Assembly (NCBI GenBank): GCA_003219695.1
Contig: QHQA01000045.1
Coordinates: 1-34,551 of the forward strand
DNA length: 34,551 bases
Source of the DNA: Verrucomicrobiota bacterium
GTDB lineage: Bacteria; Verrucomicrobiota; Verrucomicrobiia; Chthoniobacterales; UBA10450
Reading direction: 5' to 3'
The notes beneath the pieces were generated by a model that was given only the letters and a program-made list of their open reading frames with translations, searched no databases and had not been told where the DNA came from. Shown piece by piece: positions 18,740 through 34,499 of the stretch. Made by a program: the position numbers and the translations under genes. Numbering within the stretch: position 1 is the first letter of the stretch; every line of letters begins with the position of its first letter.

Positions 18740-19051
18740 TCAATCTTCGTTAAATCCCGCGTTGATCAGCGCCTCGAGCTCCTCCATAGCTTTGTCGGCG
18801 TCTGGTCCCTCGCAACGGATACGCAGCTTTGATCCCTGTCCAGCAGCCAGCATCATCAGGCCCATGATGCTTTTGCCATTTACCTCTTCTCCTTCCTTTG
18901 ACACCCAAACTTCCGAGCGGTAACGGCTCGCAATCCGCACGAACATGGCCGCCGGGCGGGCGTGAAGCCCCAGGCGATTCACAATTGCAATTTCTTTCTC
19001 AATCTTCTGGGCCGCCGCCGTCCCGCTCGCTCTTCGATACAACAAGCCCAT
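18740..19051 (-). CDS. ptsH: HPr phosphocarrier protein
   Basis: 103 residues against about 88 normally: residues 1-15 (MGLLYRRASGTAAAQ) are an extra N-terminal piece. The active histidine is His30 in NRLGLHARPA, and the regulatory serine is Ser61 in NGKSIMGLMMLAA, the target of HPr kinase. The start codon overlaps the hprK stop (TAATG), which signals translational coupling. It carries phosphate from enzyme I. With hprK next to it and no permease in view, I infer a mainly regulatory phosphorelay. Confidence 0.95.
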   Translation of the reverse strand: MGLLYRRASGTAAAQKIEKEIAIVNRLGLHARPAAMFVRIASRYRSEVWVSKEGEEVNGKSIMGLMMLAAGQGSKLRIRCEGPDADKAMEELEALINAGFNED

Positions 19052-20097
19052 TACGTCGCTCCCTTTCCTGCCACGCCGGAGGTCGCCGCCCCGAAAGCTT
19101 TCGGGGAAGGCGGGCGCTCCATCAAACGGAGCAGCCTCGTGTTGAAATCGACCGCACTGTTTTGTCCCAAGCCTTTTAATTTTTCGTCCATCGCTGCGAC
19201 CTCGATCAGACGCGCCATATCGCGACCGGGCCGCACCGGAATGGTGACGTGCGGCACTTTAAGGCCGAGAATTTCATAAAATTCCCGATCGAGCCCGATC
19301 CGATCCACCTCTTCCACCTCTTGCCAGTCCTTGAGCGTAACGACAAGGTCGAGACGCTTTTCCACGCGAATACTGCCGACGCCGAAAACCTTTGACACAT
19401 CGATAATGCCAATGCCGCGCACTTCCATATGATTGCGCGTCAAATCCGGCGCCTTGGCCATGAGCTCGCGTCCCTCGATCATTGTGATTCGCGTCACATC
19501 GTCAGCGACGAGACTGTAGCCACGCTCGATCAGCCCAAGGACACATTCACTTTTGCCGATGCCGCTGGCGCCGCGAATCAAGACGCCCACGCCCAAAATA
19601 TCCACCATGCTGCCGAATTCAGTCACAGTGGGGGAAAAATCCATTTCCAAGGCAATGGTCGCCGCGTTAATGAACTTCATTGTGATCATCGGCGTGCGAA
19701 ACACTGCGATCTCCGCCTCATTCGTCACCGCCAGCAAATCCGGGAAAAGATGAAAGCCGCGCGACATCACCAGACACGGGATCTTACGCTCGCATAGTTT
19801 CTGGAACCGCTGCACCCGCGTTTTCAGAGGCAAACTTTTCAAATACGAGTGCTCGGCTGCACCCAGCACCTGGATACGTTTCTCGGCGAAGTAAGTGTAG
19901 AAGCCCGAGAGCGCGAGTCCCGGCCGGTTGATGGTGGGCTCGCGAATTTTTCGATGAAATCCCACGCGCGGTCCTTCCAGCTTCATCTGCAACTTCTCAG
20001 CGTGCGAATTGTAAAAGCTCTCCACGGTCACAACGGGGACACTCTTCTGTTGATCGCTCGGAGAAGTAATTGTTTGGGTCCCGCGTTGTTCGGCCAT
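19051..20097 (-). CDS. hprK: HPr kinase/phosphorylase
   Basis: 348 residues. Phosphorylates or dephosphorylates the HPr regulatory serine. The N-terminal domain covers residues about 20-150 (CLVMSRGFHLFPDLL). The P-loop is GASGIGKS at 176-183, followed by GYSLVADDVTRI with the conserved Asp pair and the signature HMEVRGIGIIDVSKVFG. The C-terminus is longer than usual and ends in a Pro/Ala/Gly-rich tail. Odd point: where the Gram-positive and proteobacterial enzymes have an invariant His-Gly (VHGVLVD) just before the P-loop strand, this protein has EFGSMVD, so that histidine is Phe. First gene of the hprK-ptsH-ptsI unit. Confidence 0.94.
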   Translation of the reverse strand: MAEQRGTQTITSPSDQQKSVPVVTVESFYNSHAEKLQMKLEGPRVGFHRKIREPTINRPGLALSGFYTYFAEKRIQVLGAAEHSYLKSLPLKTRVQRFQKLCERKIPCLVMSRGFHLFPDLLAVTNEAEIAVFRTPMITMKFINAATIALEMDFSPTVTEFGSMVDILGVGVLIRGASGIGKSECVLGLIERGYSLVADDVTRITMIEGRELMAKAPDLTRNHMEVRGIGIIDVSKVFGVGSIRVEKRLDLVVTLKDWQEVEEVDRIGLDREFYEILGLKVPHVTIPVRPGRDMARLIEVAAMDEKLKGLGQNSAVDFNTRLLRLMERPPSPKAFGAATSGVAGKGAT

Positions 20098-20214: not shown

Positions 20215-20340
20215 TCCAAATGACGAAGTTCTAATGACGAAGGACGAAGGAATGTCGAAGCCTGAATGTCGAAACGCGTTCAACGTAGTGCGCTGTTTCG
20301 GATCTCGTCATTCGTCATCTGGATTTCGTCATTCCTTTTC
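20215..20340. repeat. REP-like inverted repeat built of aatgacgaa units
   Basis: Left half: several copies of aatgacgaa/gacgaaggaatg. Right half: their complements (ctcgtcattcgtcatctgg, then atttcgtcattcc). The element separates hprK from the end of dynamin-like GTPase 1, and its right arm codes for the last residues of that GTPase. Confidence 0.6.
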
Positions 20341-22362
20341 CCATTCCCGCAAAATCCGAAGATCGTTTTGAATAGCTGACGCGTCGGTTGTCCCTGCTGC
20401 TGCCTGCGCAGCATCAAAGTGCGCGCGATGCATATCAGCGAATACATTAAACGCGTTGCGCAGCGCGTTGATGCTTTGCTCCATCCAGCGCCGGAGGCGA
20501 TTTGCGTAAAGGCTCAGAAACTCCAGCAATGCGCGATCGTATTCCGTCTCCAGTTTTCGCCGGATGTGCGAGGCGAGCGCGCCCTTGCCGAGCAACGAAA
20601 GCAGGCGCGGCTTTTCGACCACAACTTTTTGCGAAATCTCGTTTACGTCCATCATCGGCATGCCGGCCGGTTTTGGTAATTCCTCGGCTGCATCCTCACT
20701 CAAAGCCGAGGCCACAACGTCCATCGCTTTTGCCAGAGCATCGCGCGTCTGCTCGATTGAACGGAGCGTTGCGGCAACAGGCTCGGCAATCATCTGCGTC
20801 AGCGTCTCGGAAAAAATTGAGGACGCATCCACATCGTCTGACTCGATCAACGCCGCTGAGATTCGCTCCGCAGCGACATCAATGATCGGGCGTTGCATCT
20901 TCGTAATTTTTTTGGTTAGAAAAAAGGACTCGCCTTGCGCGCGCTCCAAAATTCGGTCGCCATTGCGCAAGGCTTCGACCGCTTTGCCGGGACGGGCGAG
21001 CTCCTGCGAGCCCGGCGTCGCTCCGCCCTCCAGTCTGCGCTCCAACGCGCCAATGACCGCCTCGCGCAAAGCGCCGATCTTACGCTTTTGTGAAGTGATA
21101 GCGAGTTCGCGATGTTGCGCCAAGAACGGGCGCAATTCGGATTCAAACCAGCGATCGCATAACGCCGCATCGGCGCCGAAGACGCTGACGGCATGCACGG
21201 GCGGTTCGACGTCAAGCTGGGTGCGCAGGTTTGTTTTCACGTACGTAATCATTTGCTCTCGATCGGCGGCACTAAACAGATCGGCTTTGCTGATGAGCAC
21301 CATCGTGCTCGCGCCGGCTTGATAAAGCGCCTGCACCACGACCAGATCATCCTGGGTAAGGCCTGCGCTCGCGTCGATTAGGACGATGCCCAGATCGCAT
21401 CGCGGCAGATACGCGATTGTTTCCTCCGCGCCGGCAACCGCCAGCGAGCCAAGCCCTGGCGTATCGACGAAAGTAACGCCTTCCGCAAGGCGGGCGGACG
21501 GCAGCTTCACGAAGATGCGGGTAACATGCTTTTTGTTTCCTGGATTCTTCTGCTCACTCGCAAATTCAGGCAACTCGGACAGTGGAATAATTTGCGGCTG
21601 CGCTTCGGCAAATTCGATTCCCGCTTCGGCAACCGGTCCATGGCTGATGCGCGTCGGTATCGCTGTGACCGGCGTGACGCCCACGGGCAACACGTCGGTT
21701 TGCAAAATGTAATTCAGTAGCGACGACTTGCCGGAGCTGACTCTGCCAAAGACGCCGACTTCAAACGCTGCCGATTCCATTCGATCCAGCAGCATGCCTA
21801 CTGTCCCGCGAAATTCGACGAGGCCATGCGCGGTGACGATCTTCTCGGTCTCACTGAGCAACCGAATCTCATCGCCGGTTTTGCCTAACTGCTGAAGCCG
21901 CTTTTGCAGATCGCCTCCTGCGCCTTTGCCCAGGAAACTTCGCAGCTTGGCTACCAAACCATCCAGCTCGGCGCGGATGCCGTCTAAGTTATTGGCAGCC
22001 TCCGCGGAAAGCGGTCCGTAGGCGAGCATACGTTCCGGCGTAAGCTCGTTCAGTGAGATCGAACAGTACATCAAATTAATCGCGGCGGCCCATATGGCGC
22101 CCGAGTGTGGCTCGGATGCTGGAATGTCCAGTTCCTCCATGATGCGACGCATCGCCTCGCGGATTCGCAAGATGTAATCGTGCGTCACCTTGCGCTGAAT
22201 CGGCGTCGTATCGTCGGAATGTCTGCGGAATGGCGATGGCGAACCGGCATCCGACATGATGTGCTCCGCTTCAGAAAGCAACTTGTCGATGTACTGAAAC
22301 GTGGTGCGCACATGCCGATGATGGTGCTCGCTGAAGCCGTGCGTGTTTTTTTCCTCGTTCAT
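20329..22362 (-). CDS. Dynamin-like GTPase 1
   Basis: 677 residues. A helical N-terminal region (His-rich near residue 12-17) precedes a dynamin-type G domain: G1 GRVSSGKSS (206-214), switch I threonine in PVTAIPT (231-237), G3 DTPGLGS (300-306), G4 SKAD (358-361). Long helical segments follow (AAERISAALIESDDVDASSI, ETLTQMIAEPVAATLRSIEQ, then RRKLETEYDRALLEFLSLYA), as in bacterial dynamin-like proteins that assemble on and remodel membranes. No transmembrane segment is obvious; a short hydrophobic piece (RLLSLLGKGALASHI) could act as a membrane paddle. Its ATG overlaps the NTPase gene stop by 4 nt. It is the last gene of fluoride-riboswitch unit A. Confidence 0.88.
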   Translation of the reverse strand: MNEEKNTHGFSEHHHRHVRTTFQYIDKLLSEAEHIMSDAGSPSPFRRHSDDTTPIQRKVTHDYILRIREAMRRIMEELDIPASEPHSGAIWAAAINLMYCSISLNELTPERMLAYGPLSAEAANNLDGIRAELDGLVAKLRSFLGKGAGGDLQKRLQQLGKTGDEIRLLSETEKIVTAHGLVEFRGTVGMLLDRMESAAFEVGVFGRVSSGKSSLLNYILQTDVLPVGVTPVTAIPTRISHGPVAEAGIEFAEAQPQIIPLSELPEFASEQKNPGNKKHVTRIFVKLPSARLAEGVTFVDTPGLGSLAVAGAEETIAYLPRCDLGIVLIDASAGLTQDDLVVVQALYQAGASTMVLISKADLFSAADREQMITYVKTNLRTQLDVEPPVHAVSVFGADAALCDRWFESELRPFLAQHRELAITSQKRKIGALREAVIGALERRLEGGATPGSQELARPGKAVEALRNGDRILERAQGESFFLTKKITKMQRPIIDVAAERISAALIESDDVDASSIFSETLTQMIAEPVAATLRSIEQTRDALAKAMDVVASALSEDAAEELPKPAGMPMMDVNEISQKVVVEKPRLLSLLGKGALASHIRRKLETEYDRALLEFLSLYANRLRRWMEQSINALRNAFNVFADMHRAHFDAAQAAAGTTDASAIQNDLRILREWEKE

Positions 22363-23099
22363 TTTCTCGTTGTGGTATCGGCTTCCAGCCGATCTCTTGG
22401 GTTCATCGGCCGAGATGCCGATGCCACAATCTCGTGAATCCGCCGGTCCAGATCGAGCAGATCGAGGCCGAATGAACTGTCGATCTTGTACTCGCGTGCT
22501 GAAAGTTCGATGAGCAGTTCTTCCAATATTCGCGGATTGCCACCGCTCATCCTGTGCAATTCATTCGCGTACTTGCGCGCATCCATCTGGATGTTCTCCT
22601 GCGCGACGGCCTTTTCGATAAGCATCCGCGTCTCAGTTTCAACAAGAGGCAAAAGTTCAATGCGCGCGAACCGGTAGAGGTTCTGCCAGATATGCCCGAT
22701 CTCATCAGGCCGGTCGCAGCGACAAGCGATCCAGATTGGGACCTGCTCGGCAAGAAGCGCGATGAATCGACCGACGCGCGGCGGAGTATGCGCTACCTGA
22801 TCTAAGGCCATTGGCTCGCCGCGCCGGATTAAATAAGCAAGCAAACGGTTCTTGCGCTCAACGACATTCAGCTTGAGATGAGCCCAGCCAAGCTGGCGTT
22901 CCAAGCTGTCGCAAATGCGGCGCAGACTCGATGTTTCTTCGCAAACCAGCAACGGACATTCTTGTCGGACTTGCCTCAAAAGCGCTGTCTTTCCGATGCC
23001 AGCTGGCCCCACAATGAGCACGTGCTTGCGCAAAGCGTAAAGACGCCGCAGCTCATCGATCTCTCGCTCCCGCCCAAAGAACGCGAAACTCTTGTTCAT
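22359..23099 (-). CDS. P-loop NTPase (AAA/ORC-like), accessory to the dynamin
   Basis: About 246 residues from ATG 23099, which overlaps the previous stop as ATGA; a TTG at 23108 is a weaker alternative. Starts FFGREREIDELRRLYALRKH, then Walker A GPAGIGKT (31-38). The middle (VPIWIACRCDRPDEIGHIWQ) occupies the expected Walker B/sensor region but has no classical hhhhDE. The second half (LPLVETETRMLIEKAVAQEN, HRMSGGNPRILEELLIELSA) matches the lid/sensor-2 part of ATPase_2/AAA_22-type NTPases. Such proteins often regulate partners by nucleotide-driven switching. Its gene overlaps both neighbours by 4 nt, so a joint function with the dynamin and the Cys/His protein is likely; the exact role is unknown. 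Confidence 0.8.
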   Translation of the reverse strand: MNKSFAFFGREREIDELRRLYALRKHVLIVGPAGIGKTALLRQVRQECPLLVCEETSSLRRICDSLERQLGWAHLKLNVVERKNRLLAYLIRRGEPMALDQVAHTPPRVGRFIALLAEQVPIWIACRCDRPDEIGHIWQNLYRFARIELLPLVETETRMLIEKAVAQENIQMDARKYANELHRMSGGNPRILEELLIELSAREYKIDSSFGLDLLDLDRRIHEIVASASRPMNPRDRLEADTTTRK

Positions 23100-23776
23100 G
23101 GAGCGCAATAATCCTCTGCACCAACAAGATGAACTAATGCGCGGAGCGAAGCGTCTTCTTCATCCGCGCTGATCAGGTCGCGCCGGAGCGCCTCGCGCTT
23201 TGCTGCATAGTTACGCATCTGCTGCGTGACCTGTTCAAATCGACGCGACGCAGTCGTTAGGAGGAATTTGCGAACAGGGTTTGACACAACCGCAAACATC
23301 CGCGCGAGGTGCGGGAGACAAAGTCCTCCCGAACGCTTGTAGAGCTGCGCTCCTTTTTCCTCAGAAATAAAAGTGGCCAGGCGCTCCACGTAAGCCGCCT
23401 CTGCATCCTTGAGCATCGCGCAGATCCGGCAATTCTCCCGAAGCCGCGGAATTTTGTGAACATTAGAACTGGCGGTTTCATCGCATTCTGTGTTCGCCAA
23501 CGCGTGTGCGATTTTTTCTGTCAACGCCGAAAGCCCGATCGACTCACCCCAAGGCGAAGACATGCTGTGAAGTTGCCAAGCGTGACGCGGACAAAACCCC
23601 AGCTCTGTTGCAAAACTCTCCTGTGCTGCTTCGTCCGACGCGAGCGCGTACTGCCAGTGGGCGAAGAAATCCCGGGCCGTTTTGATGACATAATTACAAA
23701 CTGGGCACCCGCGCGTGCGCAAGTTTGCAGGGAAATCGTTGTCCTTTTCGATTACTGCCGTTTGGGATGTGCTCAT
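23096..23776 (-). CDS. DUF6062-like protein with two Cys2-Cys-His metal-site repeats
   Basis: 226 residues, soluble. Two similar halves each carry CxxC and then CxxH: Cys24-Cys27 with Cys62-His65 (CPVC ... FCPRHAW), and Cys116-Cys119 with Cys153-His156 (CRIC ... LCLPHLA). The spacing between the pairs is almost the same (34 and 33 residues), so the protein looks like an internal duplication, each half able to hold one zinc or iron. This fits my memory of DUF6062, a family without a known role. The start lies 6 bp after the MFS stop, and the stop overlaps the NTPase start. Confidence 0.8.
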   Translation of the reverse strand: MSTSQTAVIEKDNDFPANLRTRGCPVCNYVIKTARDFFAHWQYALASDEAAQESFATELGFCPRHAWQLHSMSSPWGESIGLSALTEKIAHALANTECDETASSNVHKIPRLRENCRICAMLKDAEAAYVERLATFISEEKGAQLYKRSGGLCLPHLARMFAVVSNPVRKFLLTTASRRFEQVTQQMRNYAAKREALRRDLISADEEDASLRALVHLVGAEDYCAP

Positions 23777-23782
23777 GAGTTG

Positions 23783-25051
23783 TCAATTCGTCGCGTTTGG
23801 ATTTTCAAATCGCCGATACTTGCGGCGCACGATGAAAAAGATCGGAATGGCAGCCAGCTCGAGCGCGACGCAGAAGATGACTACCGCGACCACGGACCGC
23901 TCGTAGAGGAATCCCATTGGCGCACTGCCGAGGACCCAGGCCACGCCGTAACCGGCGGTAAACAACCCGTAGGCTGAAGCGCGCCGTTGCCGCGGCACCA
24001 TCGGCGCCACCGCTGCCGGGACGATCGATTCGTGCACGCCCATCCCAAGTCCCCAAAGCGCTGCGCCCAGCAACGCCGGCCATGTGCCGCCGAGAAAAAC
24101 CAGCGGCGCAAACACTGCCGAGACGAGCGTGAGCGGAATCAGAATCCCGATGCCCACTCGGTCGAATAATCGCCCAAAAACCAGGGAACCGGCGCCGCTT
24201 ACTCCCATTGCGATCGCATACGCGACCGGCACCAGATCTCTCGGCACCGACGACGTCTTTTGGAAATGAAATGCAATCAACGGGAAATCCGCGTAGCCCG
24301 CCGCTACCAGCGCCGCACCTGCGAGGTAAATCCAGAAAACACGCGGCAACCCTTTCCCGTGGATGTTCGGCGTTTCGGTTTCCATTTCTTCCGGGCGCGG
24401 GTACAGCCAACGCGCAATGAGAAGAAGCGTGAGGCAGACGACCGCCGGAATGAGCAGCGCGGCAAAAGCGAAAGGATAATCACCGCGCCACGCCAGGATC
24501 GCCGCGACAGCCAGCGGCCCAAAGAACGCGCCAAATTGGTCGAGCGCTTCGTTTACGCCAAACGCCCAGCCAAGCCCGAGCTCCTTGCCCGCGTGCGAGA
24601 GCATCACGTCGCGCGGCGGATTGCGCGTGGCGCGCCCGACGCGTTCGAGAATGATCAGCGCAGCGGCTGTTTGCCAGTTACCCGCCAGTGCGAGCGCTGG
24701 CACCGAGAGTAATTGGACGAAGTAGCCGAGAATCGTGATTGGCCAGAATTTTCCGGTGCGATCCGCCAAACCGCCGGAGACCAGGCGCAAACTGTAGCCT
24801 AACAACTCGCCCACCCCGCTAACAACCGCCACCACAACGGCGCTCGCCGACAACATCCCCAGATACGGCCCCACAATGCTGCGCGAGCCTTCGTAGGTGA
24901 AATCGGCAAAGAAACTCAGCACGCCGATCATCAGCACAAATTTCAGCGCGGCAGATTTTTTTCGCGTCGTCGGCATCGCGGTACCAATCGTCATCCGGTG
25001 GAAGTTAAACCTTTCTGGGCACAGGTCAGATATGCTTGTTATCGCTTTCAT
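23783..25051 (-). CDS. MFS transporter in a fluoride-riboswitch unit
   Basis: 422 residues from 25051; ATGs at 24994 and 24976 are also possible, the last giving MPTTRKKSAALKFVLMIGVL, a more normal MFS start. About twelve hydrophobic segments. The first cytoplasmic loop GLADRTGKFWPI fits the MFS signature, and the second half repeats it (GRLFDRVGIGILIPL). ILERVGRATRNPPRDVML is also typical. Substrate is unknown; the riboswitch about 255 bp upstream suggests fluoride or a fluoride-linked ion. The next gene follows after 6 bp. It is unrelated to CrcB/Fluc or CLC-F, the usual fluoride exporters. Confidence 0.85.
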   Translation of the reverse strand: MKAITSISDLCPERFNFHRMTIGTAMPTTRKKSAALKFVLMIGVLSFFADFTYEGSRSIVGPYLGMLSASAVVVAVVSGVGELLGYSLRLVSGGLADRTGKFWPITILGYFVQLLSVPALALAGNWQTAAALIILERVGRATRNPPRDVMLSHAGKELGLGWAFGVNEALDQFGAFFGPLAVAAILAWRGDYPFAFAALLIPAVVCLTLLLIARWLYPRPEEMETETPNIHGKGLPRVFWIYLAGAALVAAGYADFPLIAFHFQKTSSVPRDLVPVAYAIAMGVSGAGSLVFGRLFDRVGIGILIPLTLVSAVFAPLVFLGGTWPALLGAALWGLGMGVHESIVPAAVAPMVPRQRRASAYGLFTAGYGVAWVLGSAPMGFLYERSVVAVVIFCVALELAAIPIFFIVRRKYRRFENPNATN

Positions 25052-25190
25052 CTTTCGTCAGGTAGCCGGACGCTTGCCGGCTGAGATTGACCTGATGCTT
25101 TTTTGTATAGGCCTCGAAGATTTCGTCTGCGCTGAGTTCCAACACCTGCGCGGCACTGCGAAATCGTTGGGGAGCCGGCCTCCTGGGCAT
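25026..25190 (-). pseudogene. Short remnant ORF, possibly the C-terminus of a dimeric dUTPase
   Basis: The last about 40 residues (LELSADEIFEAYTKKHQVNL, SRQASGYLTKDESDNKHI) look like real protein and resemble, from memory, the C-terminal helix and tail of all-alpha dUTPases (AYxKKxxxNxxRQxxGY). The N-terminal nucleotide-binding part is absent; upstream the frame runs into the riboswitch. It may be a decayed gene between aptamer and MFS gene, or a small leader ORF. It overlaps the MFS start at 25051. Low certainty. Confidence 0.35.
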
Positions 25191-25275
25191 GTTGGCGCGG
25201 CGCGGGCCGGCGAGATTCTCTGCAGCCGCTGGCGCAGCAGATAACGCCGCGTCAATGTGATTTTCTGATGAAACT

Positions 25276-25316
25276 GACTTCACTACCAAAACACGGAATT
25301 GCGGTTGGTAGGAGTC
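25276..25316 (-). promoter_or_regulatory. Expression-platform hairpin of riboswitch A
   Basis: Minus strand: GACTCCTACCAA can pair with TTGGTAG plus AGTC about 17 bases later. The 5' arm is the 3' strand of the fluoride aptamer, so aptamer folding and this hairpin exclude each other. No clean T-tract follows, so the mode of control is unclear. Confidence 0.5.
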
Positions 25317-25383
25317 ATTAGCCCCGCGGCTGCGGGGCGCTTCGGCTTCGAAGGATTTTCGAAACCCGGCAAACTCCACTGCC
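25307..25383 (-). ncRNA. Fluoride riboswitch (crcB motif) A
   Basis: Minus strand, 5' to 3': GGCAGTGGAGTTTGCC (25383-25368), an optional hairpin (GGTTTCGAA/TTCGAAGCC), a 7-bp P3 stem (GCCCCGC/GCGGGGC), and then TAATGACTCCTACC (to 25307). This follows the crcB fluoride aptamer order: GGCxxTGG-GTT-GCC, stem, GC-T(A/G)ATGAC-CC. The GGAG in the 5' block pairs with CTCC in the 3' block. It lies upstream of the MFS-DUF6062-NTPase-dynamin genes on the same strand. The plus-strand FGE-like gene starts 79 bp from its other side. Confidence 0.85.
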
Positions 25384-25461
25384 GTCATGAACTAGCCACT
25401 GTTTCTGAATGAAATCAAGCTTCCAGGGATTACGCTGAAGGCCCGGTGGGCAAGCGCTGAG

Positions 25462-26271
25462 ATGACTAAAGCGTGGACAAACGAAAAGGATGGTTCGCTG
25501 ATGCGACTGATTCCCGCAGGCGAATTCACCATGGGATCCACCATCCAGCAGACCGAAGCGGCGAAGCGAATGGACAAGGCTGGGCCGCAGTTTCCGCTGT
25601 TGCATGAAACCCCGCAGTTGCGCGTCAGAGTCCCTGATTTCTATCTAAGCGTTTTTGCGGTGACCAATGAACAGTTCGCGCGGTTTCTTTCCGAGATAAA
25701 GCCAACGCCCGAACAACTTCAGCGCTGGGTTTCGTGGCTGGACCGCATTGTCCCGCTTGGCGGCTCCGAACCCTATCGCGCTGTGCCCGAATTCAAAACG
25801 CACCCCGTGATCAACGTTACGTGGTTTGGAGCCGACGCGTATTGCCGCTGGGCCGGTTTGCGATTGCCGACTGAAATTGAATGGGAGAAAGCTGCGCGAG
25901 GAGATGATCACCGCATTTTTCCGTGGGGCGACGAATGGGACCCGGATCGGCTCAACTGGTGGGGCAGTCACGATGAGAAAGAGACCACTGCGCCAGTAGA
26001 TGCTTTTGAGAAGGGCTGCTCGCCGTATGGCATTTTGCAAATGGCCGGTAACGTCGAGGAATGGTGCGCCGACTGGTATCAACCGGATGTTTACAAGCGT
26101 TACGCCACGGGAAATCTCGCATTACCGCGCGCTGGAATCGGTCGAGTCATCCGCGGCGGTAATTGTCTGCGCAAGAATAGGCTTGAATTCCGCTGCGCCA
26201 TGCGCCGCGCAAACACTCCTTCATTCACCAACATCCTTTTCACTGGCATCCGCTGCGCAGCAGATCGGTAG
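25462..26271 (+). CDS. SUMF1/FGE-fold protein (formylglycine-generating-enzyme family)
   Basis: 269 residues from ATG 25462. Covers the whole SUMF1 fold: LIPAGEFTMGST, YLSVFAVTNEQFARFL, HPVINVTWFGADAYCRWAGL, RLPTEIEWEKAARGDD, FPWGDEWDP, SPYGILQMAGNVEEWCADWY, and RVIRGGNCLRKNRLEFRCAM with NTPSFTNILFTGIRCA. The copper-binding cysteine pair of true FGE (GGSxxCxxxxC) is not there: the aligned stretch is GGNCLRKNRLEFRC. So I call it the fold, not the activity; other members are iron-dependent oxidases or glycan/ligand-binding proteins. It points away from riboswitch unit A, and no sulfatase is nearby. Confidence 0.85.
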   Translation: MTKAWTNEKDGSLMRLIPAGEFTMGSTIQQTEAAKRMDKAGPQFPLLHETPQLRVRVPDFYLSVFAVTNEQFARFLSEIKPTPEQLQRWVSWLDRIVPLGGSEPYRAVPEFKTHPVINVTWFGADAYCRWAGLRLPTEIEWEKAARGDDHRIFPWGDEWDPDRLNWWGSHDEKETTAPVDAFEKGCSPYGILQMAGNVEEWCADWYQPDVYKRYATGNLALPRAGIGRVIRGGNCLRKNRLEFRCAMRRANTPSFTNILFTGIRCAADR

Positions 26272-26404
26272 GTCTAACTGACCGTCGCTCATTGACGATA
26301 TTATTCATCTACAGGAGGCGCTCAATGTGATGATGCAGGCAAACAGTGGCGCTCTCGGGAACTTCCGTCCAGCAATGCGGACAATAAAATGTCGTCATCA
26401 CGTT

Positions 26405-26500
26405 AAACGATGGAGTGTTGGAGTATTAGAGTGCTGGAGTGATGCGGCATGCCTTCCACTCCTCCATCACTCCATTACTCCATTACTCCATTACTCCCTC
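26405..26500. repeat. REP-like inverted repeat built of tggagt units
   Basis: Left half: tggagtgttggagtattaga followed by gtgctggagtgatg. Right half: tccatcactccattactcca repeated three times, its complement. The arms also carry short direct repeats of 9-10 bases. It separates the converging ends of the FGE-like gene and dynamin-like GTPase 2. The right arm codes the last residues of that GTPase. Confidence 0.6.
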
Positions 26501-28286
26501 GCCTCGCCGCCAACAGTGCCTGCTCGATCTCCGTTAATTTGGACAACGTTCGCTGGCTGCCCTCGATATCGGACTCAACCTGTTCAGCGTGTCGTTTGCG
26601 TTGCTCGAGTGCTTTTTTCATGGCGCCTCGCGTAGCGTCCAGACTCATTGCTAGTCGCTCGTCCAGTTCTGCACCGAAACGGCGGAACGTGTCCTCCAGG
26701 TTTTGCCGGGTGGCCCAACGCAGATTTTCCACATTGCGAATGACCACGGCATCGATCTCTTCGAGCAGGCGTTTTCGCATTCTTCTTTTACGCATCGGCG
26801 CGGGTAAAAATCGATCGAACGCGCCCGGGGGAATCGGATTCAATTCCGTCGTCCGCGCAGCGGTGAACCAAAACGGTTCGCGTTTGGCTTCGAACGCCTC
26901 GCTGCTTTCCGGCGCGTGGAAAGGAATCTCCAAAAGATTGGCCGCTGTCTGCCTAACGAGGGTGATCAATTCGTCGGCGCGACTTTGATGGACCCGTAAT
27001 ACTTCCTCCAAGCGCGCGCCTACTTTGTGAATCACGTCTCGCAGCGCGTCTTCGAAAAACGCGATAACCTTCGCGCTAAGCCGTGCCTGCGCGCTCTCAG
27101 AATCTTCACCGGCGACGAGCGACTCGTCGAGTTCGCGTTCAAGAACGGCGCGAGCCTCAAACCGAATTCGTTCCGCTTCCGATTCGAGCTCTTGCAATGC
27201 GCGCACACGATCGCCGGCCAGCAGATCATTGGCTGTGCGCCGTTGTACCTCGAATTGTTTTGCCGCCTCATCGAACGTGGTCATCCGCTGCTCGAGATCC
27301 TCAACCGGCAAACGCAATGACTTGAGAGCGATCTCGGTCTCGAGTTCTAGCTGCGCAACCAATGCCGCTGCTTTTTGCGCGACCGCTGCGTTGAGGGTTT
27401 CGCGTTTTTCATTCGCCAGGAACTGGACCAAATGCTTTTCGAGTGCTGCAAATCCACTGGTTCCGAACGCTTCAGCGTCGCCAGATTCTTTCGCGCGGAG
27501 AGCGTCACGCGCCGAAAGACTGAAGATTGGCGTCAATGGACCAAGCCCGGCATGATCCACAAGCGCGTTGCGCAGGAAGGCTTGAGCTTTCTCGCGGTCA
27601 TGCGGGTCGATCATGTCGATTTTGTTTAAGACAACGATCAATCGCGCGACGGTTTCTCGAATCCGCGCCAGATATTCGATCTCGATCTCCGTAATGGGCG
27701 GATCGGCGGAAACGACGAGAAGCGCCGCGTCGCATTCAGGCAACACGGCGTCCGCTGCGGCGGTTTGGTGACGATGCGTCGAACCAACACCCGGCGTATC
27801 GATGAGAACCACGCCGCGTTTGAGAAGTTCGGCAGGCAAAAATACATCCACGCGGGCGACGTTTAATATGTTCCGCGGATTTGCTTCCTCTGTGACGAAT
27901 GCGGTCAATCTGTCGCGTAGTGCGTCCGCGTTCTTCAGTTCAAACTCCTCCACTTCGCCCGAAACGTACGTCACGCGAAGCTTCGAAGCAGTCCCGCTAT
28001 TGCAGGATTCCAGAAATGTTGGGATCGCGGTGACCGGTACCACGCCAATCGGCAACACCGATTGTCCAAGTAGCGCATTAAGCACCGTGCTCTTCCCGCG
28101 TTTGAATTGACCGAGCACGGCCAGTTGAAAACGCTCGGTGGCCAGTCGCTCACGCAAGGCATTCAGCCGCTCCAGGATTTTGGCCTGGCTCGCGGAAGGG
28201 CTATGGACAATGGCGGGAGCTTCATCCAAAAGTCGCGTCCAATCACGACTCGTTGCGACATCCGGACAATGCTGAGCTGCTAGCAT
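26475..28286 (-). CDS. Dynamin-like GTPase 2
   Basis: 603 residues from ATG 28286, 47 bp after the antiporter stop. A short helical N-terminus leads to the G domain: G1 GQFKRGKST (59-67), switch I threonine in PVTAIPT (84-90), G3 DTPGVGS (163-169), G4 NKID (221-224). The rest is helical and charged (LRLPVEDLEQRMTTFDEAAK, ELESEAERIRFEARAVLERE, RKRHAEQVESDIEGSQRTL), fitting the neck and trunk of bacterial dynamin-like proteins. No membrane span. It shares the PVTAIPT switch with GTPase 1 but is otherwise distant. Bacterial dynamins often work as unequal pairs, so the two GTPases may form one hetero-complex. Confidence 0.88.
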   Translation of the reverse strand: MLAAQHCPDVATSRDWTRLLDEAPAIVHSPSASQAKILERLNALRERLATERFQLAVLGQFKRGKSTVLNALLGQSVLPIGVVPVTAIPTFLESCNSGTASKLRVTYVSGEVEEFELKNADALRDRLTAFVTEEANPRNILNVARVDVFLPAELLKRGVVLIDTPGVGSTHRHQTAAADAVLPECDAALLVVSADPPITEIEIEYLARIRETVARLIVVLNKIDMIDPHDREKAQAFLRNALVDHAGLGPLTPIFSLSARDALRAKESGDAEAFGTSGFAALEKHLVQFLANEKRETLNAAVAQKAAALVAQLELETEIALKSLRLPVEDLEQRMTTFDEAAKQFEVQRRTANDLLAGDRVRALQELESEAERIRFEARAVLERELDESLVAGEDSESAQARLSAKVIAFFEDALRDVIHKVGARLEEVLRVHQSRADELITLVRQTAANLLEIPFHAPESSEAFEAKREPFWFTAARTTELNPIPPGAFDRFLPAPMRKRRMRKRLLEEIDAVVIRNVENLRWATRQNLEDTFRRFGAELDERLAMSLDATRGAMKKALEQRKRHAEQVESDIEGSQRTLSKLTEIEQALLAARRGSNGVME

Positions 28287-28333
28287 GCTCTACCAAATTG
28301 GTTCTCCTGCATTCACAAGCACGCCGCGAGGTT

Positions 28334-29656
28334 TCAAACTCGGCTTTCTAGATGGCGCTCCTTGCCCATCTTCGCGACCTCGCTTTCGGTCTCCGTATCG
28401 ATGTCTTCAACTGAGAGTGTCCCAAGCCGTCGCCGATAGAGATGACCCCACGCGTGCATCATCTCGACCGTTGGCTGGAAAAATTTTTGCGCGATTAACG
28501 TCGGCACAAATGCGCTTAGGATGACAACACTGACCAGGATCGTGTACTCCTTCTGGTCGATGATCCCGTTTTGCAAACCATACAAGGAGGAGATAGTTCC
28601 AAATGTCAGACCCGTGGCCATGAGCAGCGTGGTGTAGCTCGCCTCCTTCATCTTCATGTAATGCAATCGGGCGAGCGGAAAGACCCCCGCGATTTTGGTC
28701 ACCATCTTCACAGCGAGAAACGCGCTAATCACCAGCAGCCCGGTCCACAGGGCCGGCAGCGACACGTACAAACCGGCCTTGATGAAATAGAATGGCGTGA
28801 AGACAGCAAACGCAATGCTGCGCATGCGACGCACCAGCGTTTTGTCGCGAAGAAATACGCCGGCAACCACAAGACCGAGGAGATAGGCCGGCAGGACTGC
28901 TTCGCTTTTGGCTGTCGTGGCGAGACCGCCGAGAAAGAAAAGAACAAATAAGATAAATTTTACTTCCGGCTCGCTCACCTGCGTCGCGCCCAGGCGCATG
29001 ATGATCGCTTGTGTCCAGCGCGGCATGAACCACAGAACAATGAGCGTCACAATCACAAATAGCAGCAGCCAAAAGTTATAGTTGGCGAACAGGGTGCCGA
29101 GCGCGAGGACCGTCCCGAAATCGGTAATGAAACACGCAGCCAGGATCATTTTGCCCATGGCAGTGTCGCTGAATCCGCCCTCAATCATCACCGCATAGAC
29201 CACTGCGACGGAGGTCGTGGAAAGCGCGATGCCGGCAATCTGCGCCTGGTGCAGAGACCAGCCGAAAACAAATTGGGCGAAGATCCATGCGGCAGCGAAC
29301 GGAATGGCAAACGAAAGAACACCGATTAGCATGCTCGCGCGCCAATTCGCCTTCAGCGAAATTGGATCGATTTCCGTGCCAGCGAGAAACGTGAGCACGC
29401 CGCTGCCGAGCAGCGCGAGGAAGTTTGTCCACTCCGTCGATTGCAGGACATGATGCAGGTTTCCTGCGCCAGCGCCGGCGCCCGCAATACCGATGTGCAA
29501 CGTGCCGCCTTCCAATCCCACGGCGAGATTGCCGGCCACGACGCCAACCAGAATTTCAACCAGTGCGACTGAGATACCAGTCCGGATCGAGATCAAGCTG
29601 CCGATGAGCGCCAAGCCCATCCAGACTGCGGCGATAAACCAGATGTTTTCGAACAT
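28334..29656 (-). CDS. CPA2-type cation/proton antiporter under a fluoride riboswitch
   Basis: 440 residues from ATG 29656. Eleven to thirteen hydrophobic segments, including IWFIAAVWMGLALIGSLISI, VALVEILVGVVAGNLAVG, FLALLGSGVLTFLAGTEID, IAGIALSTTSVAVVYAVM and ILAACFITDFGTVLALGTLF. The LSTTSVAVVY and ITDFGTVLAL stretches match the discontinuous-helix and Asp regions of Kef/NapA-like antiporters. There is no RCK domain; the tail (DIDTETESEVAKMGKERH) is short and charged. It exchanges a cation for protons across the inner membrane. The ATG follows a U6 tract that also ends the riboswitch terminator. Na+/H+ antiporters are among known fluoride-riboswitch partners. Confidence 0.88.
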   Translation of the reverse strand: MFENIWFIAAVWMGLALIGSLISIRTGISVALVEILVGVVAGNLAVGLEGGTLHIGIAGAGAGAGNLHHVLQSTEWTNFLALLGSGVLTFLAGTEIDPISLKANWRASMLIGVLSFAIPFAAAWIFAQFVFGWSLHQAQIAGIALSTTSVAVVYAVMIEGGFSDTAMGKMILAACFITDFGTVLALGTLFANYNFWLLLFVIVTLIVLWFMPRWTQAIIMRLGATQVSEPEVKFILFVLFFLGGLATTAKSEAVLPAYLLGLVVAGVFLRDKTLVRRMRSIAFAVFTPFYFIKAGLYVSLPALWTGLLVISAFLAVKMVTKIAGVFPLARLHYMKMKEASYTTLLMATGLTFGTISSLYGLQNGIIDQKEYTILVSVVILSAFVPTLIAQKFFQPTVEMMHAWGHLYRRRLGTLSVEDIDTETESEVAKMGKERHLESRV

Positions 29657-29683
29657 AAAAAACTCCTTCCTGCTTGGAAGGAG
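29657..29683 (-). terminator. Riboswitch-controlled terminator that doubles as the ribosome site
   Basis: Minus strand: CTCCTTCC-AAGCA-GGAAGGAG followed by TTTTTT and then ATG. It is a perfect 8-bp stem with a U6 tract. The 5' arm CTCC is the 3' strand of the aptamer; the 3' arm GGAAGGAG is the Shine-Dalgarno, 6 bases before the ATG. Ligand-bound aptamer would keep CTCC busy, so the gene would be on with fluoride. Confidence 0.8.
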
Positions 29684-29738
29684 TCATTAGCTCACGCAAT
29701 TTTCTCCCGCGTCGCGGGAGAAGGCAAACTCCATTGCC
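29680..29738 (-). ncRNA. Fluoride riboswitch (crcB motif) B
   Basis: Minus strand: GGCAATGGAGTTTGCC (29738-29723), an inserted hairpin TTCTCCCGC/GCGGGAGAA (29722-29702), then TTGCGTGAGCTAATGACTCC down to 29680. The two conserved blocks match riboswitch A almost base for base (GGCxxTGGAGTTTGCC; GCTAATGACTCCT). P3 is very short here (GC-GTGA-GC) compared with 7 bp in A, a point to check. It sits directly before the antiporter and overlaps its terminator. Confidence 0.8.
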
Positions 29739-29850
29739 TTGCCGGATTTTACGGAACGTTTATTCCACGTCAACTCAAACGCTGATGCGGTGCAGTCCCG
29801 GAGTGCTCCGCTTCAACGATTTAACCATTTAACCTGGCGCTAAGGCGCCG

Positions 29851-30636
29851 TCACATCTTGAAACGTTCGCCAAGATAAAGCTGGCGGCTGATGGGATCGT
29901 TGATGAGAAAGTCTTTTGTGCCTTCGCTCTCGACGCGACCATCGTAAATCAAATACGCGCGATCCACGATAGAGAGAGTCTCGCGGACGTTGTGGTCGGT
30001 GATCATGATGGCCAAGCCCGATTTCCGGAGGTTTACGATGATCTGTTGCACATCGTAAACGGCAATGGGATCGACGCCGCTGAACGGCTCATCGAGCATC
30101 AACAACCTCGGTTGTGTGACCAGCGAACGCGCAATAGTCAAGCGCCGTTTCTCGCCGCCGCTTAACGTCAGCGCGGTATTCTTGGCGATCCGCTCGATCC
30201 CGAACTGGTGCAGCAACTGGTCGCAACGGTTTCGTCGTTCCATTTTGCTCATGGGAAGCGTTTCCAAGATCGCCATAATATTTTGCTCCACCGTCATTTT
30301 GCGAAAGATCGATTCTTCCTGCGGTAGATAGCCCATGCCCAGGCGGGCGCGCTTGTACATCGGGTAGTCTGTTACGTCGGTGTCGCAAAAAATCACCCGA
30401 CCGCTGTTTGGCCTTACCAAGCCAACGATCATATAAAAACTCGTGGTCTTGCCGGCTCCGTTTGGCCCGAGAAGTCCCACGATCTCACCCGCGTGGACGT
30501 GCATGTTGACTCCGTCCACAACTGCTCGGCCACCATAAATCTTGACCAGCTGATCGGTGGTCAAAACGGTTTCTGCCTTCGTTGCAACCGGCGAACGAAC
30601 TTTTGGAGTCGAAACAGGCGCGGTTTGACTAATCAT
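29851..30636 (-). CDS. lptB: LPS export ABC transporter ATPase
   Basis: 261 residues, with about 25 extra N-terminal residues before the ABC core. Powers lipopolysaccharide extraction from the inner membrane. Walker A GPNGAGKTTS, Q-loop YLPQEESIFRKM, signature LSGGEKRRL, Walker B LLMLDEPFSGVDP, H-loop ITDHNVRETL, and the LptB-type ending YLGERFKM. ATG at 30636 overlaps the lptA stop by 4 nt. LptF/LptG are not in the window. Confidence 0.95.
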   Translation of the reverse strand: MISQTAPVSTPKVRSPVATKAETVLTTDQLVKIYGGRAVVDGVNMHVHAGEIVGLLGPNGAGKTTSFYMIVGLVRPNSGRVIFCDTDVTDYPMYKRARLGMGYLPQEESIFRKMTVEQNIMAILETLPMSKMERRNRCDQLLHQFGIERIAKNTALTLSGGEKRRLTIARSLVTQPRLLMLDEPFSGVDPIAVYDVQQIIVNLRKSGLAIMITDHNVRETLSIVDRAYLIYDGRVESEGTKDFLINDPISRQLYLGERFKM

Positions 30637-33668: not shown

Positions 33669-34499
33669 TTAGCGGATTACCCAGAGATTGCACGGAATAA
33701 CATCCGTTATCCAGGCGATATTGCTTGGTAGTTGCTGCTGTATCGCCCCGGCGGCTTTCGGAAGTGGCACTGCAAATAAATCCGCTTCCACCGACTGGAC
33801 AAAATCGGACGCGGCCAACCCGGTAGCACCGCGAATCCAGCGGGTCTCGATCGGCACCTCGGTCGCGCCGGCTGCCAGAACAAAGTTTTCAAGTGCCTCC
33901 TCGGCCTCATCCTTTGCCTCACGTGTGCGACCAGCAACCGCATTGCCGCGGATAGAAGCGCGCGCTTCATCAAACGCAGTGCTAATCGCAATCACATAAA
34001 GTCGCTCGCACGGTTCTGCTTCGGCGAGCCGCAAAACGATTTTCAGCGCCTGCAGCGCGTATTCTGAACGGTCGGCAATGAACACGATCCGGCGAAGTGC
34101 TCTCGGCTCTAGTTCGGGCCTCGTGAAAAGCATCACCGAACAGGGCGCTTCTTTCACGAGGCGGCGCGCGACCACGCCAAGAAATGGATGCAACACCACT
34201 TCCTTTTCCAGCGCGCCGGCAACGACCATATCGATTTGCTCCCGCGCAAGCGCGCGCAAGATCGCTTCGGGTGGATCGCCTTGCTCATAATGAATCGCTG
34301 CGTCGGGTGGCAGATGTAGTTGCGCAAGCGCATCGCTAAACTTCTTTGCCGTCTCGTCATTTCTCCTGCCCACATGAATCAGATGAAGATCGGCGGAAAA
34401 CCGGTCCCGCATTCGCTTCGCCTCGGCAAGAACGTGCCTGAATCGCGGAGAAAACGTCGTCGCCACAGCAATGGTTTTGTATCGCGATGGAGCGCGCAT
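33669..34499 (-). CDS. Tandem universal stress protein (UspA-type)
   Basis: 276 residues in two Usp domains. Domain 1 (about 1-130): KTIAVATTFSPRFRHVLAEA, DLHLIHVG, then IDMVVAGALEKEVVLHPFLG and ...APCSVMLF. Domain 2 (about 135-276): RRIVFIADRSEYALQALKIV, LYVIAIS, VEADLFAVPLPK, PCNLWVIR. The ATP-binding GxxGx9G(S/T) motif is not intact in either domain, so it may not bind ATP. Usp proteins help cells survive stress or growth arrest. Alone in its unit here. The 52 bases after 34499 show nothing. Confidence 0.88.
   Translation of the reverse strand: MRAPSRYKTIAVATTFSPRFRHVLAEAKRMRDRFSADLHLIHVGRRNDETAKKFSDALAQLHLPPDAAIHYEQGDPPEAILRALAREQIDMVVAGALEKEVVLHPFLGVVARRLVKEAPCSVMLFTRPELEPRALRRIVFIADRSEYALQALKIVLRLAEAEPCERLYVIAISTAFDEARASIRGNAVAGRTREAKDEAEEALENFVLAAGATEVPIETRWIRGATGLAASDFVQSVEADLFAVPLPKAAGAIQQQLPSNIAWITDVIPCNLWVIR

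Follow-up and report, generated by a model that had tools for sequence, protein, structure and literature searches.

Two dynamin-like GTPases are encoded behind two fluoride riboswitch aptamers, together with ion transporters, in a 34,551-nt stretch of a Verrucomicrobiota genome (contig QHQA01000045.1; hereafter, the window). We propose, with a probability of roughly two in three, that these dynamins are induced by fluoride and act with the ion transporters as membrane scaffolds, sealing or remodeling the membrane and/or organizing the transporters. This proposal is built on genome sequences, in particular on the recurrence of relatives of one of the two dynamins close behind fluoride aptamers in about 16 phyla.

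Two operons behind fluoride aptamers

The source organism of the window is a soil bacterium. The features discussed below are as follows.

19051..20097, minus strand: HPr kinase (PF07475/PF02603), downstream syntenic anchor in the genus
20329..22362, minus strand: dynamin 1 (DYN1), an N-domain fused to a dynamin GTPase (PF00350 Dynamin_N, E 1.5e-23, 84.1 bits versus a cutoff of 27)
21934..22341, minus strand: N-domain of dynamin 1 (profile match, E 2.4e-8; hhalign probability 96.6, E 6.8e-10)
22359..23108 as called, 22359..23099 from ATG, minus strand: small P-loop NTPase, AAA_16-like (PF13191, E 3.1e-9)
23096..23776, minus strand: DUF6062 protein (PF19538, E 2.8e-13)
23783..25051, minus strand: MFS transporter, first gene of unit A (PF07690, E 1.3e-23)
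25270..25325, minus strand: hairpin pairing the 3' strand of aptamer A with downstream sequence (minimum-energy fold)
25302..25392, minus strand: fluoride riboswitch aptamer A (RF01734, 38.4 bits versus a gathering score of 34)
26475..28286, minus strand: dynamin 2 (DYN2; PF00350 Dynamin_N, E 1.3e-26, 94.0 bits versus a cutoff of 27)
28334..29656, minus strand: CPA2-type cation/proton antiporter, first gene of unit B (PF00999 Na_H_Exchanger, E 2.7e-35)
29661..29685, minus strand: terminator-like hairpin of unit B (10-pair stem followed by TTTT; also folded)
29671..29747, minus strand: fluoride riboswitch aptamer B (RF01734, 35.8 bits versus a gathering score of 34)
29746..29773, minus strand: sigma-70-like promoter of unit B, TTGACG-16-TAAAAT (consensus scan, 10/12 matches)
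29851..30636, minus strand: ABC ATPase (PF00005), presumably LptB-like, upstream syntenic anchor in the genus

An earlier, sequence-only reading had called two fluoride aptamers in the window, and both pass the RF01734 covariance model; a search with this model found no others in the assembly. The genes that it had named were all recovered by Pfam, and its junctions are exact: 6 nt between the MFS and DUF6062 genes, a 4-nt overlap between the DUF6062 and NTPase genes (counted from the ATG at 23099), a 4-nt overlap between the NTPase and dynamin 1 genes, and a 47-nt gap between the CPA2 and dynamin 2 genes. The nearest solved chains to CPA2 are Na+/H+ antiporters (4bwz and 5bz3), and its match to TIGR00932 lies under the cutoff of that model. 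An NTPase homolog (278 bits) is found downstream of an aptamer and CPA2 in another genome (G125), and relatives of the MFS transporter (384 to 485 bits) occur at at least seven DYN2 loci in other phyla. No match to CrcB/Fluc (PF02537) or CLC (PF00654) was detected in this genome, the assembly of which is 92.9% complete. The locus suggests that a CPA2 antiporter is able to replace the CrcB channel.

In unit B, the end of the promoter coincides with the first bases of aptamer B, and the aptamer and the hairpin have a 3' strand in common. The right arm of this hairpin, GGAAGGAG, is the likely ribosome-binding site for the CPA2 ATG. With a promoter, an aptamer, and a terminator hairpin over the CPA2 ribosome-binding site, unit B resembles a textbook ON switch. 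The 3' strand common to aptamer and expression platform is clear in unit B; in unit A, the strand pairs with no clear T run behind the hairpin, and about 250 nt separate the aptamer from the called MFS start. A scan for sigma-70-type promoters over 10 kb yielded two sites (shuffled mean, 4.1). The same scan, which covers the sigma-70-type consensus only, detected no site in the 47-nt gap. None of the outcomes that the earlier reading had named as refuting it (aptamers failing the covariance model, fluoride-independent promoters of the dynamin genes, lack of conservation in relatives) has so far been observed.

The locus is not a local oddity of a single contig, an explanation rejected by searches of the order, the phylum, and all species. 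Among 213 genomes of the order, 70 had an aptamer match at E 0.001, with 61 over the cutoff; one genome just below it (G177, 33.9 bits) was counted among the aptamer-bearing members of the genus. The ABC ATPase and HPr kinase genes flank 21 of the 33 aptamer loci in the genus.

A dynamin 2 family behind fluoride aptamers

The sequence-only reading had proposed searching for dynamin genes downstream of fluoride aptamers in Verrucomicrobiota. In a search that started from DYN2, the association was seen well outside the window. Relatives of DYN2 numbered 203 in 84,980 species, and a same-strand fluoride aptamer lies within 800 nt upstream in 59 of the best 80 of these 203. The distance between the aptamer's end and the first position of the tblastn match was 76 to 260 nt (median, 143) at 53 of the 80 loci and 300 to 800 nt at 6; the aptamer was farther upstream at 7. 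At 14 loci, no aptamer reached the gathering score in the available upstream sequence (<400 nt in 5 and >400 nt in 9). The first possible start codon followed the 53 close aptamers at a median of 25 nt; 15 of the 53 frame calls begin ahead of the aptamer end, so the called starts are tentative. The aptamer-linked relatives span bacteria and archaea and about 16 phyla, a tally taken from record titles and tree labels, and those outside the genus are 36 to 47% identical. The locus count includes three loci with cmscan-accepted aptamers (L186, L214, and L235, the last classed as farther) and L231. The 80 loci are partly nonindependent: L186 and the G170 contig are the same, L212 and L213 match the G219 and G359 contigs in both length and position, and L206 is close to L219.

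Fifty genomes with DYN2 relatives contained 86 aptamer matches in 160 Mb, a count made with stricter filters at which weak matches are lost; these aptamers were assigned to loci by converting coordinates and were inspected as sequence. At this density, a given gene has a chance on the order of 1e-4 of being preceded, at 300 nt or less, by a correctly oriented aptamer. The 3' strand of the aptamer pairs downstream at 48 of the 53 close loci, compared with 28.2 +/- 2.9 when the downstream part was shuffled, and such pairing is trailed by a T run at 12 of 53 (2.8 +/- 1.2 shuffled). No fluoride aptamer was present at any of 12 control loci, which surround other dynamins from the same phylum (3 to 19 kb each, with five covering just ~3 to 4 kb around the match). 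These observations weigh against the view that the dynamins sit in fluoride operons by chance or for housekeeping unrelated to fluoride, which we regard as very improbable. Operon membership by itself is weak evidence, 14 of the 80 loci are without an aptamer, and several members of the genus have lost dynamin 1 or carry a broken copy, all of which would fit such passengers. However, chance or housekeeping would not readily yield 53 aptamers within 300 nt, with coupled hairpins, in about 16 phyla, and no aptamer at the controls, or the repeated exchange of domains with other fluoride-operon proteins that is described below.

Clustering of the genes that lie no more than 4.5 kb from DYN2, with representatives checked by Pfam, gave CPA2 (17 of 80 loci), the N-domain (15), enolase (15), MFS (12), MutS-like (10), CrcB (6), Usp (6), ABC ATPase (6), DUF190 (5), and DUF6062 (4) proteins, along with unnamed proteins. 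A dependence of DYN2 on CrcB was rejected; DYN2 genomes neither require nor avoid CrcB, which is present in 20 of 50. CPA2, MFS, or CrcB genes lie within 4.5 kb at 29 of the 80 loci and are immediately adjacent at 16. Pairing of a transporter with a dynamin in each unit, as claimed earlier, is therefore not a rule, and unit A itself has no MFS gene in G170 and G172, the two genus relatives with dynamin 2.

The same neighborhoods bear on a role in defense, in which the dynamins would form a set like LeoABC that acts against phage or in secretion. PADLOC yielded weak matches of DYN2 to LeoA (4.6e-18) and LeoBC (5.4e-15) and of DYN1 to LeoA (1.7e-4). However, the 12 control loci of other dynamins are without aptamers, and the recurrent neighbors of DYN2, which lie outside the PADLOC scan, are enolase, antiporter, CrcB, and Usp genes; we consider a defense role very improbable. 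A plasmid or phage origin was likewise rejected: one plasmid record matches the window DYN2 at 35% coverage, 12 match the Moorella DYN2 at 29 to 43% coverage, and one phage match is weak. On a Lichenicola plasmid (L276), a dynamin gene is divergent from an aptamer-crcB-Usp operon, and no aptamer was found directly ahead of it.

Dynamin 1 and its N-domain

Of 35 genomes of the genus, 10 carry DYN1, intact or broken, at the aptamer locus. It is broken or reduced in four of these 10, and DYN1 is thus dispensable. Five genus genomes have a simple form, aptamer-CPA2-DYN1, with an overlap of 4 to 11 nt (DYN1 is in pieces in two). The association with fluoride aptamers is conserved in the genus for DYN1 and across about 16 phyla for DYN2. 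A widespread DYN1 family was not supported: full-length DYN1 was seen within the same genus only, and matches in a phylum sample of 387 genomes fall in the GTPase part. Judged from these matches, the wide family is that of DYN2, not DYN1. The two share ~30% identity in the GTPase domain, and DYN1, a long branch of unsure placement, was not supported as a recent duplicate of DYN2. The dynamin tree, which has long branches and 18 open forks, separates the fluoride dynamins from seven others with support of only 90/87, and we rested no argument on it. Hydropathy revealed no transmembrane-like segment in DYN1 or DYN2; any contact with the membrane would therefore be peripheral. The GTPase motifs look intact in both.

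The N-domain, for which no match was found in Pfam or PDB, has a homolog that other fluoride operons encode as a separate protein. This stand-alone form is directly behind CPA2, with a 4-nt overlap, in three genomes (G143, G127, and G146) and behind CrcB-DUF190 at L167 (by Pfam) and, by eye, at L163 and L166. This arrangement, the fusion of the same domain to a dynamin in DYN1, the simple aptamer-CPA2-DYN1 form, and the 17 loci with CPA2 near DYN2 would also fit GTP-switched organizers or regulators of CPA2, MFS, and CrcB that assemble transporters with no membrane reshaping, the N-domain being an antiporter adaptor. We hold this reading to be possible, though unlikely, as no CPA2, MFS, or CrcB gene directly adjoins 64 of the 80 DYN2 relatives and a dynamin-antiporter contact is putative.

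Two-dynamin loci and DUF6062 fusions

Two unequal dynamins are encoded together in the window, in G170 and G172, and, in other lineages, at L202, L209, L227, and L248; the form seen outside the genus, in Selenomonadales, Sporomusaceae, Rhodopila globiformis, and a Xanthobacteraceae MAG, has a different kind of second dynamin. At L227 and L248, a separate aptamer directly precedes the gene for the second dynamin. L227 is the R. globiformis locus, where the 312 nt available ahead of DYN2 show no aptamer. DUF6062 is fused to the second dynamin in four genomes, two of these fusions being immediately downstream of their own aptamers. At E 1e-6, the DUF6062 profile matches in 9 of the 50 DYN2 genomes; four matches are strong, three of them being fused to a frame of dynamin length. 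The DUF6062 protein of the window is 48% identical to the C-terminal domain of a Sporomusaceae dynamin. Eight Cys/His residues, invariant in six aligned rows, look like two metal sites. No meaningful PDB match and, in the literature searched, no paper on DUF6062 were found. The idea of a fluoride-switched two-dynamin module thus holds in part: sequence supports fluoride control of the dynamins, and the two-dynamin form recurs, but such loci are a minority among DYN2 loci.

Proposed role of the fluoride dynamins

In our preferred reading, that of membrane scaffolds acting with ion transporters, fluoride entering the cell would bind two ON riboswitches and switch on both operons, supplying ion transporters (CPA2 and MFS) and two dynamin-like GTPases. 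Dynamin 2 would belong to a widespread fluoride-response family, encoded mostly close behind an aptamer whose 3' strand could pair with the leader of the dynamin gene itself; dynamin 1 would be a second, diverged fluoride dynamin. The N-domain and DUF6062 are probably adaptors, because other fluoride operons encode them as separate proteins or as fusions. Induced in vivo and working as partners, the dynamins may bind the cytoplasmic membrane as GTP-driven peripheral scaffolds, which would seal or remodel it and/or organize transporters as the proton gradient collapses under HF and F-, thereby protecting the cell.

GTPases bind metal fluoride with GDP, which mimics the transition state. Fluoride could thus both induce and switch the dynamins, as direct chemical sensors locked or assembled by such complexes. 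The apparently intact motifs and general GTPase biochemistry would allow this, but trapping is possible for any GTPase, and we find the idea doubtful. No less doubtful is an extension of it, a dedicated two-domain fluoride dynamin whose assembly is driven by metal-fluoride/GDP trapping, so that fluoride induces and switches a machine protecting or rebuilding the membrane, with CPA2 replacing CrcB in the genus.

With a dynamin family directly behind the fluoride switch in about 16 phyla, membrane-active GTPases would become part of the fluoride response, and bacterial dynamins would gain a defined inducer and stress. The searches name strain-level hosts (Moorella sulfitireducens SLA38, where DYN2 is directly behind an aptamer at L211, and Rhodopila globiformis DSM 161) and bring out two partner families, the N-domain and DUF6062.

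Comparison with known systems

The known RF01734 (crcB motif) regulon includes CrcB/Fluc, CLC-F, Na+/H+ antiporters, enolase, and pyrophosphatase. DYN2 relatives share its aptamer and several of its partner genes. A review ranks antiporters as the next commonest riboswitch-associated class after exporters and describes the fluoride response as export, pH and ion homeostasis, and overproduction of inhibited enzymes (PMC11139923). In the literature searched, the scope of which did not include the gene list of Baker et al. 2012, no paper joined "fluoride riboswitch" and "dynamin," and "dynamin" is absent from the main text of PMC2864571. This points to a fluoride-response role for dynamins with no prior description in that literature.

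LeoABC is a dynamin set encoded in one cluster. The window dynamins have weak, partial profile similarity to it, with no full-length Leo match, and differ from it in their fluoride-type context and regulation. DynA of Bacillus subtilis is a long, double-headed protein, and we know of no fluoride-switch control of it. The NCBIfam DynA model gives DYN2 59.4 bits, far under its 1600-bit cutoff. The likeness is that of a stress-linked bacterial dynamin, DynA being described in stress-linked membrane surveillance (PMC8844932).

The DYN2 profile matches BDLP (2j68, E 1.4e-37), with the alignment confined to positions 40 to 352, and IniA (6j72, E 1.4e-22). It also matches 5owv (E 3.9e-25; DYN1, E 4.8e-17), which is listed as a GTP-binding protein and which we take to be the Campylobacter DLP1/DLP2 pair. 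In bacteria, most dynamin genes occur as pairs within operons, and side-by-side heterotypic pairs are known (PMC6104087). Unlike BDLP, DLP1/DLP2, and IniA, the window dynamins combine fluoride aptamer control with N-domain and DUF6062 fusions and have no transmembrane-like segment.

Dynamin genes behind fluoride riboswitches

Judging from their genomic context, the two dynamin-like GTPases of the window, DYN1 and DYN2, are very probably under fluoride control (probability of about 0.93). A sequence-only reading had proposed two fluoride-riboswitch units, each pairing a transporter with a dynamin, and both aptamers matched the Rfam model RF01734 above its gathering score of 34 bits. They were the sole two fluoride aptamers detected by the aptamer search in the whole assembly.

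Features of the fluoride locus
33669-34499: universal stress protein (Usp) gene, ~4 kb upstream of aptamer B
29747-29671, minus strand: fluoride riboswitch aptamer B (RF01734, 35.8 bits)
26475-28286, minus strand: DYN2
25462-26271, plus strand: FGE-sulfatase-like gene, between the two units and divergent from unit A
25392-25302, minus strand: fluoride riboswitch aptamer A (RF01734, 38.4 bits)
20329-22362, minus strand: DYN1

By Pfam annotation, unit B consists of aptamer B, a CPA2 antiporter, and DYN2, and unit A of aptamer A, an MFS transporter, a DUF6062 protein, a small AAA_16-like NTPase, and DYN1, in these orders. The gene junctions described earlier (a 6-nt gap, two 4-nt overlaps, and a 47-nt gap) proved exact. 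The FGE-sulfatase-like gene is also present in genome G172 and is split into two pieces in G170.

The end of a promoter-like site in unit B, TTGACG-16-TAAAAT, is the start of aptamer B. The 3' strand of this aptamer, GACTCCTTCC, doubles as the left arm of a hairpin that has 10 base pairs and TTTT directly after it; the right arm of this hairpin is GGAAGGAG, which lies at the expected ribosome-binding site of the CPA2 ATG. Because the aptamer strand takes part in a terminator hairpin covering this ribosome-binding site, unit B is predicted to be an ON switch, in which the ligand-bound aptamer would break the hairpin and expose the CPA2 start. An earlier report proposes this mechanism for crcB RNAs that have an overlapping terminator (PMC2864571). 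The 3' strand of aptamer A pairs downstream too, but no clear run of T follows, and ~250 nt separate aptamer A from the called start of MFS. A consensus scan of 10 kb, covering one promoter type, gave two promoter-like sites, against a mean of 4.1 in shuffled sequence. The unit B promoter is one of the two; the CPA2-DYN2 gap contains no such site.

DYN2 relatives across phyla

Among 387 genomes of the phylum, DYN2 orthologues were found in two from another family (G359 and G219; 457 bits, 44 to 46% identity; next match, 117 bits), each directly behind a fluoride aptamer, with the layouts aptamer-DYN2-N-domain and aptamer-DYN2-CPA2. Scanning the DYN2 alignment over 84,980 species yielded 203 relatives. 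Among the best 80 of these 203, which were analyzed, 53 had a same-strand aptamer <300 nt upstream of the match start (76 to 260 nt; median, 143 nt), 6 had one at 300 to 800 nt, 7 had one farther up, and 14 had none upstream on the same strand, 5 of them with <400 nt of upstream sequence. Counted from record titles and tree labels, the 53 direct cases span about 16 phyla (Thermodesulfobacteriota, Myxococcota, Bipolaricaulota, Bacillota, Calditrichota, Chloroflexota, Planctomycetota, Latescibacterota, Acidobacteriota, Atribacterota, Spirochaetota, Synergistota, Sumerlaeota, Pseudomonadota, Verrucomicrobiota, and methanogenic archaea). At 12 control loci, each centered on some other dynamin from the window's phylum (L169-L175, L179, L181-L183, and L185), no fluoride aptamer occurred.

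Of the 53 direct cases, 48 have an aptamer 3' strand that pairs downstream, compared with 28.2 ± 2.9 after shuffling of the downstream sequence, and pairing followed by a run of T was found in 12 of 53 versus 2.8 ± 1.2. At some loci (e.g., L228 and L254), the partner strand was seen by eye to be AGGAGG just ahead of the dynamin's start, which argues that the dynamin is the regulated gene there.

Gene clusters within 4.5 kb of DYN2 in the 80 loci comprised CPA2 (17 loci), N-domain (15), enolase (15), MFS (12), and MutS-like (10) proteins and, more rarely, CrcB (6), Usp (6), ABC ATPases (6), DUF190 (5), and DUF6062 (4), along with unnamed proteins; a Pfam check covered one or two proteins for every named kind. 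Two reports give several of these kinds as known fluoride-riboswitch genes (PMC11139923 and PMC2864571). CPA2, MFS, or CrcB was immediately adjacent to DYN2 at 16 of the 80 loci. CrcB is neither needed nor barred, being present in 20 of 50 DYN2 genomes.

In Holophagaceae (L253, 1665-14512), five fluoride aptamers occur in 15 kb around CPA2, DYN2, MFS, CrcB-DUF190, and one N-domain gene; L241 (3580-8668) has a single run of fluoride aptamer, two MutS-domain genes, and DYN2. On a Lichenicola cladoniae plasmid (NZ_CP053712.1; L276, 3611-7494), a dynamin gene is divergent from an aptamer-crcB-Usp operon. Usp genes, as in the window, also neighbor DYN2 elsewhere. Another protein that recurs near fluoride dynamins (L038, 6452-6859; L201, 3343-3723; L252; L265) is ~130 aa long, has HEAT repeats (by Pfam, for L201), and begins with a zinc-ribbon-like segment; in L201 it lies behind its own aptamer.

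Exchange and fusion of module components

The first ~140 residues of DYN1 (N-domain, 21934-22341) are homologous to a stand-alone ~150-aa protein (hhalign probability, 96.6; E value, 6.8e-10), which had no Pfam or PDB match and whose profile matches the window (E value, 2.4e-8). The stand-alone gene lies right behind CPA2 in four genomes (G143, G127, G146, and G125), and a fluoride aptamer is near five of six further phylum N-domain loci (L162, L163, L165, L166, and L167; none at L164). The stand-alone N-domain occurs in 16 DYN2 loci, not counting the fused copy in L186.

In Sporomusaceae (L209), the C-terminal domain of a second dynamin shares 48% identity with the DUF6062 protein of the window; in this fusion and in Selenomonadales (L202), DUF6062 and dynamin domains both exceed the Pfam cutoffs. 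More distant fusions are those of Rhodopila globiformis (L227; Pfam DUF6062, 22.8 bits against a cutoff of 27; in-house profile E value, 5.6e-47) and a Xanthobacteraceae MAG (L248; no Pfam DUF6062 match in the second dynamin, 31% identity in the DUF6062 alignment, a 348-bit match with the protein of L202), with aptamers 70 and 310 nt, respectively, before the called frame of the second dynamin. Eight Cys/His residues common to six DUF6062 rows (C24, C27, C62, H65, C116, C119, C153, and H156) are interpreted as two putative metal sites. When two proteins are fused in some genomes and encoded side by side in others, they usually work together, and it is mainly because DUF6062, the N-domain, and the dynamins show this pattern that we treat them as one module. 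The module is not universal, since the DUF6062 profile matches just 9 of 50 DYN2 genomes, 4 of them strongly.

Fluoride loci in the genus

Aptamer matches were found in 70 of 213 genomes of the order, over the cutoff in 61, and 30 of 35 genomes of the window's genus had fluoride aptamers, at 33 loci in total. Twenty-one of these loci, including that of aptamer B, sit between an LptB-like ABC ATPase gene (29851-30636 in the window) and an HPr kinase gene (19051-20097); three have the LptB-like gene only, aptamer A has HPr kinase only, and eight, both G170 loci among them, have neither. The first gene after the aptamer is CPA2 in 19 genomes and CrcB in 9 others, never both; neither is in view in G159 (contig end) or G172 (contig starting inside DYN2). 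Since the two are mutually exclusive behind these aptamers, CPA2 may stand in for the Fluc channel as fluoride exporter in the genus. No CrcB or CLC was found in the window's genome (assembly 92.9% complete), and a CLC-type gene exceeded the cutoff in seven genus genomes.

Among the aptamer genomes, 10 of the 21 that lack CrcB contain DYN1 or remnants of it, versus 0 of the 9 that carry CrcB (Fisher P = 0.013, ignoring relatedness). The simple form, aptamer-CPA2-DYN1, is found in G158, G164, and G168 and, with DYN1 in pieces, in G160 and G182; G173 and G176 hold DYN1 fragments. Some of the breaks in these last four genomes (L039, L082, L098, and L050) may be assembly errors. The two-unit form with DYN2 is found in the window, G170, and G172 (unit B start off the contig). 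The proposed transporter-dynamin pairing is seen in the simple form and in unit B of both the window and G170; for unit A it is confined to the window, because unit A of G170 and G172 (aptamer, DUF6062, NTPase, and DYN1) lacks MFS.

Possible roles and comparison with known systems

PDB matches of the DYN2 family profile were BDLP, 5owv (which we take to be the Campylobacter dynamin structure), IniA, and mitofusins. On inspection, the GTPase motifs look intact in DYN1 and DYN2. Neither protein has a transmembrane-like segment (top 19-residue hydropathy, 1.53 and 1.59, respectively), and 10 of 81 fluoride dynamin family members reach 1.6; of seven other dynamins of the phylum, six reach 1.68 to 2.22 and the seventh 1.59. 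In DYN2, a conserved P-x-W and a run of basic residues around positions 471-505 could, at a guess, be a peripheral membrane tip.

Known dynamin behavior (PMC6104087, PMC8844932, and PMC2862293) and the transporter neighbors make it fairly likely that these dynamins work at the membrane during fluoride stress. Membrane sealing, organization of transporters, and direct switching by metal fluoride are candidate roles.

Full-text searches, with few subscription papers covered, returned no paper joining fluoride riboswitch and dynamin, none for fluoride with dynamin-like and riboswitch, and none for DUF6062; the gene list of Baker et al. (2012), which lies outside this coverage, may already contain a dynamin entry. 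Matches for crcB with dynamin concern human cells, going by titles and abstract openings. In a combination for which we found no description, a known switch is joined here to a known protein superfamily.
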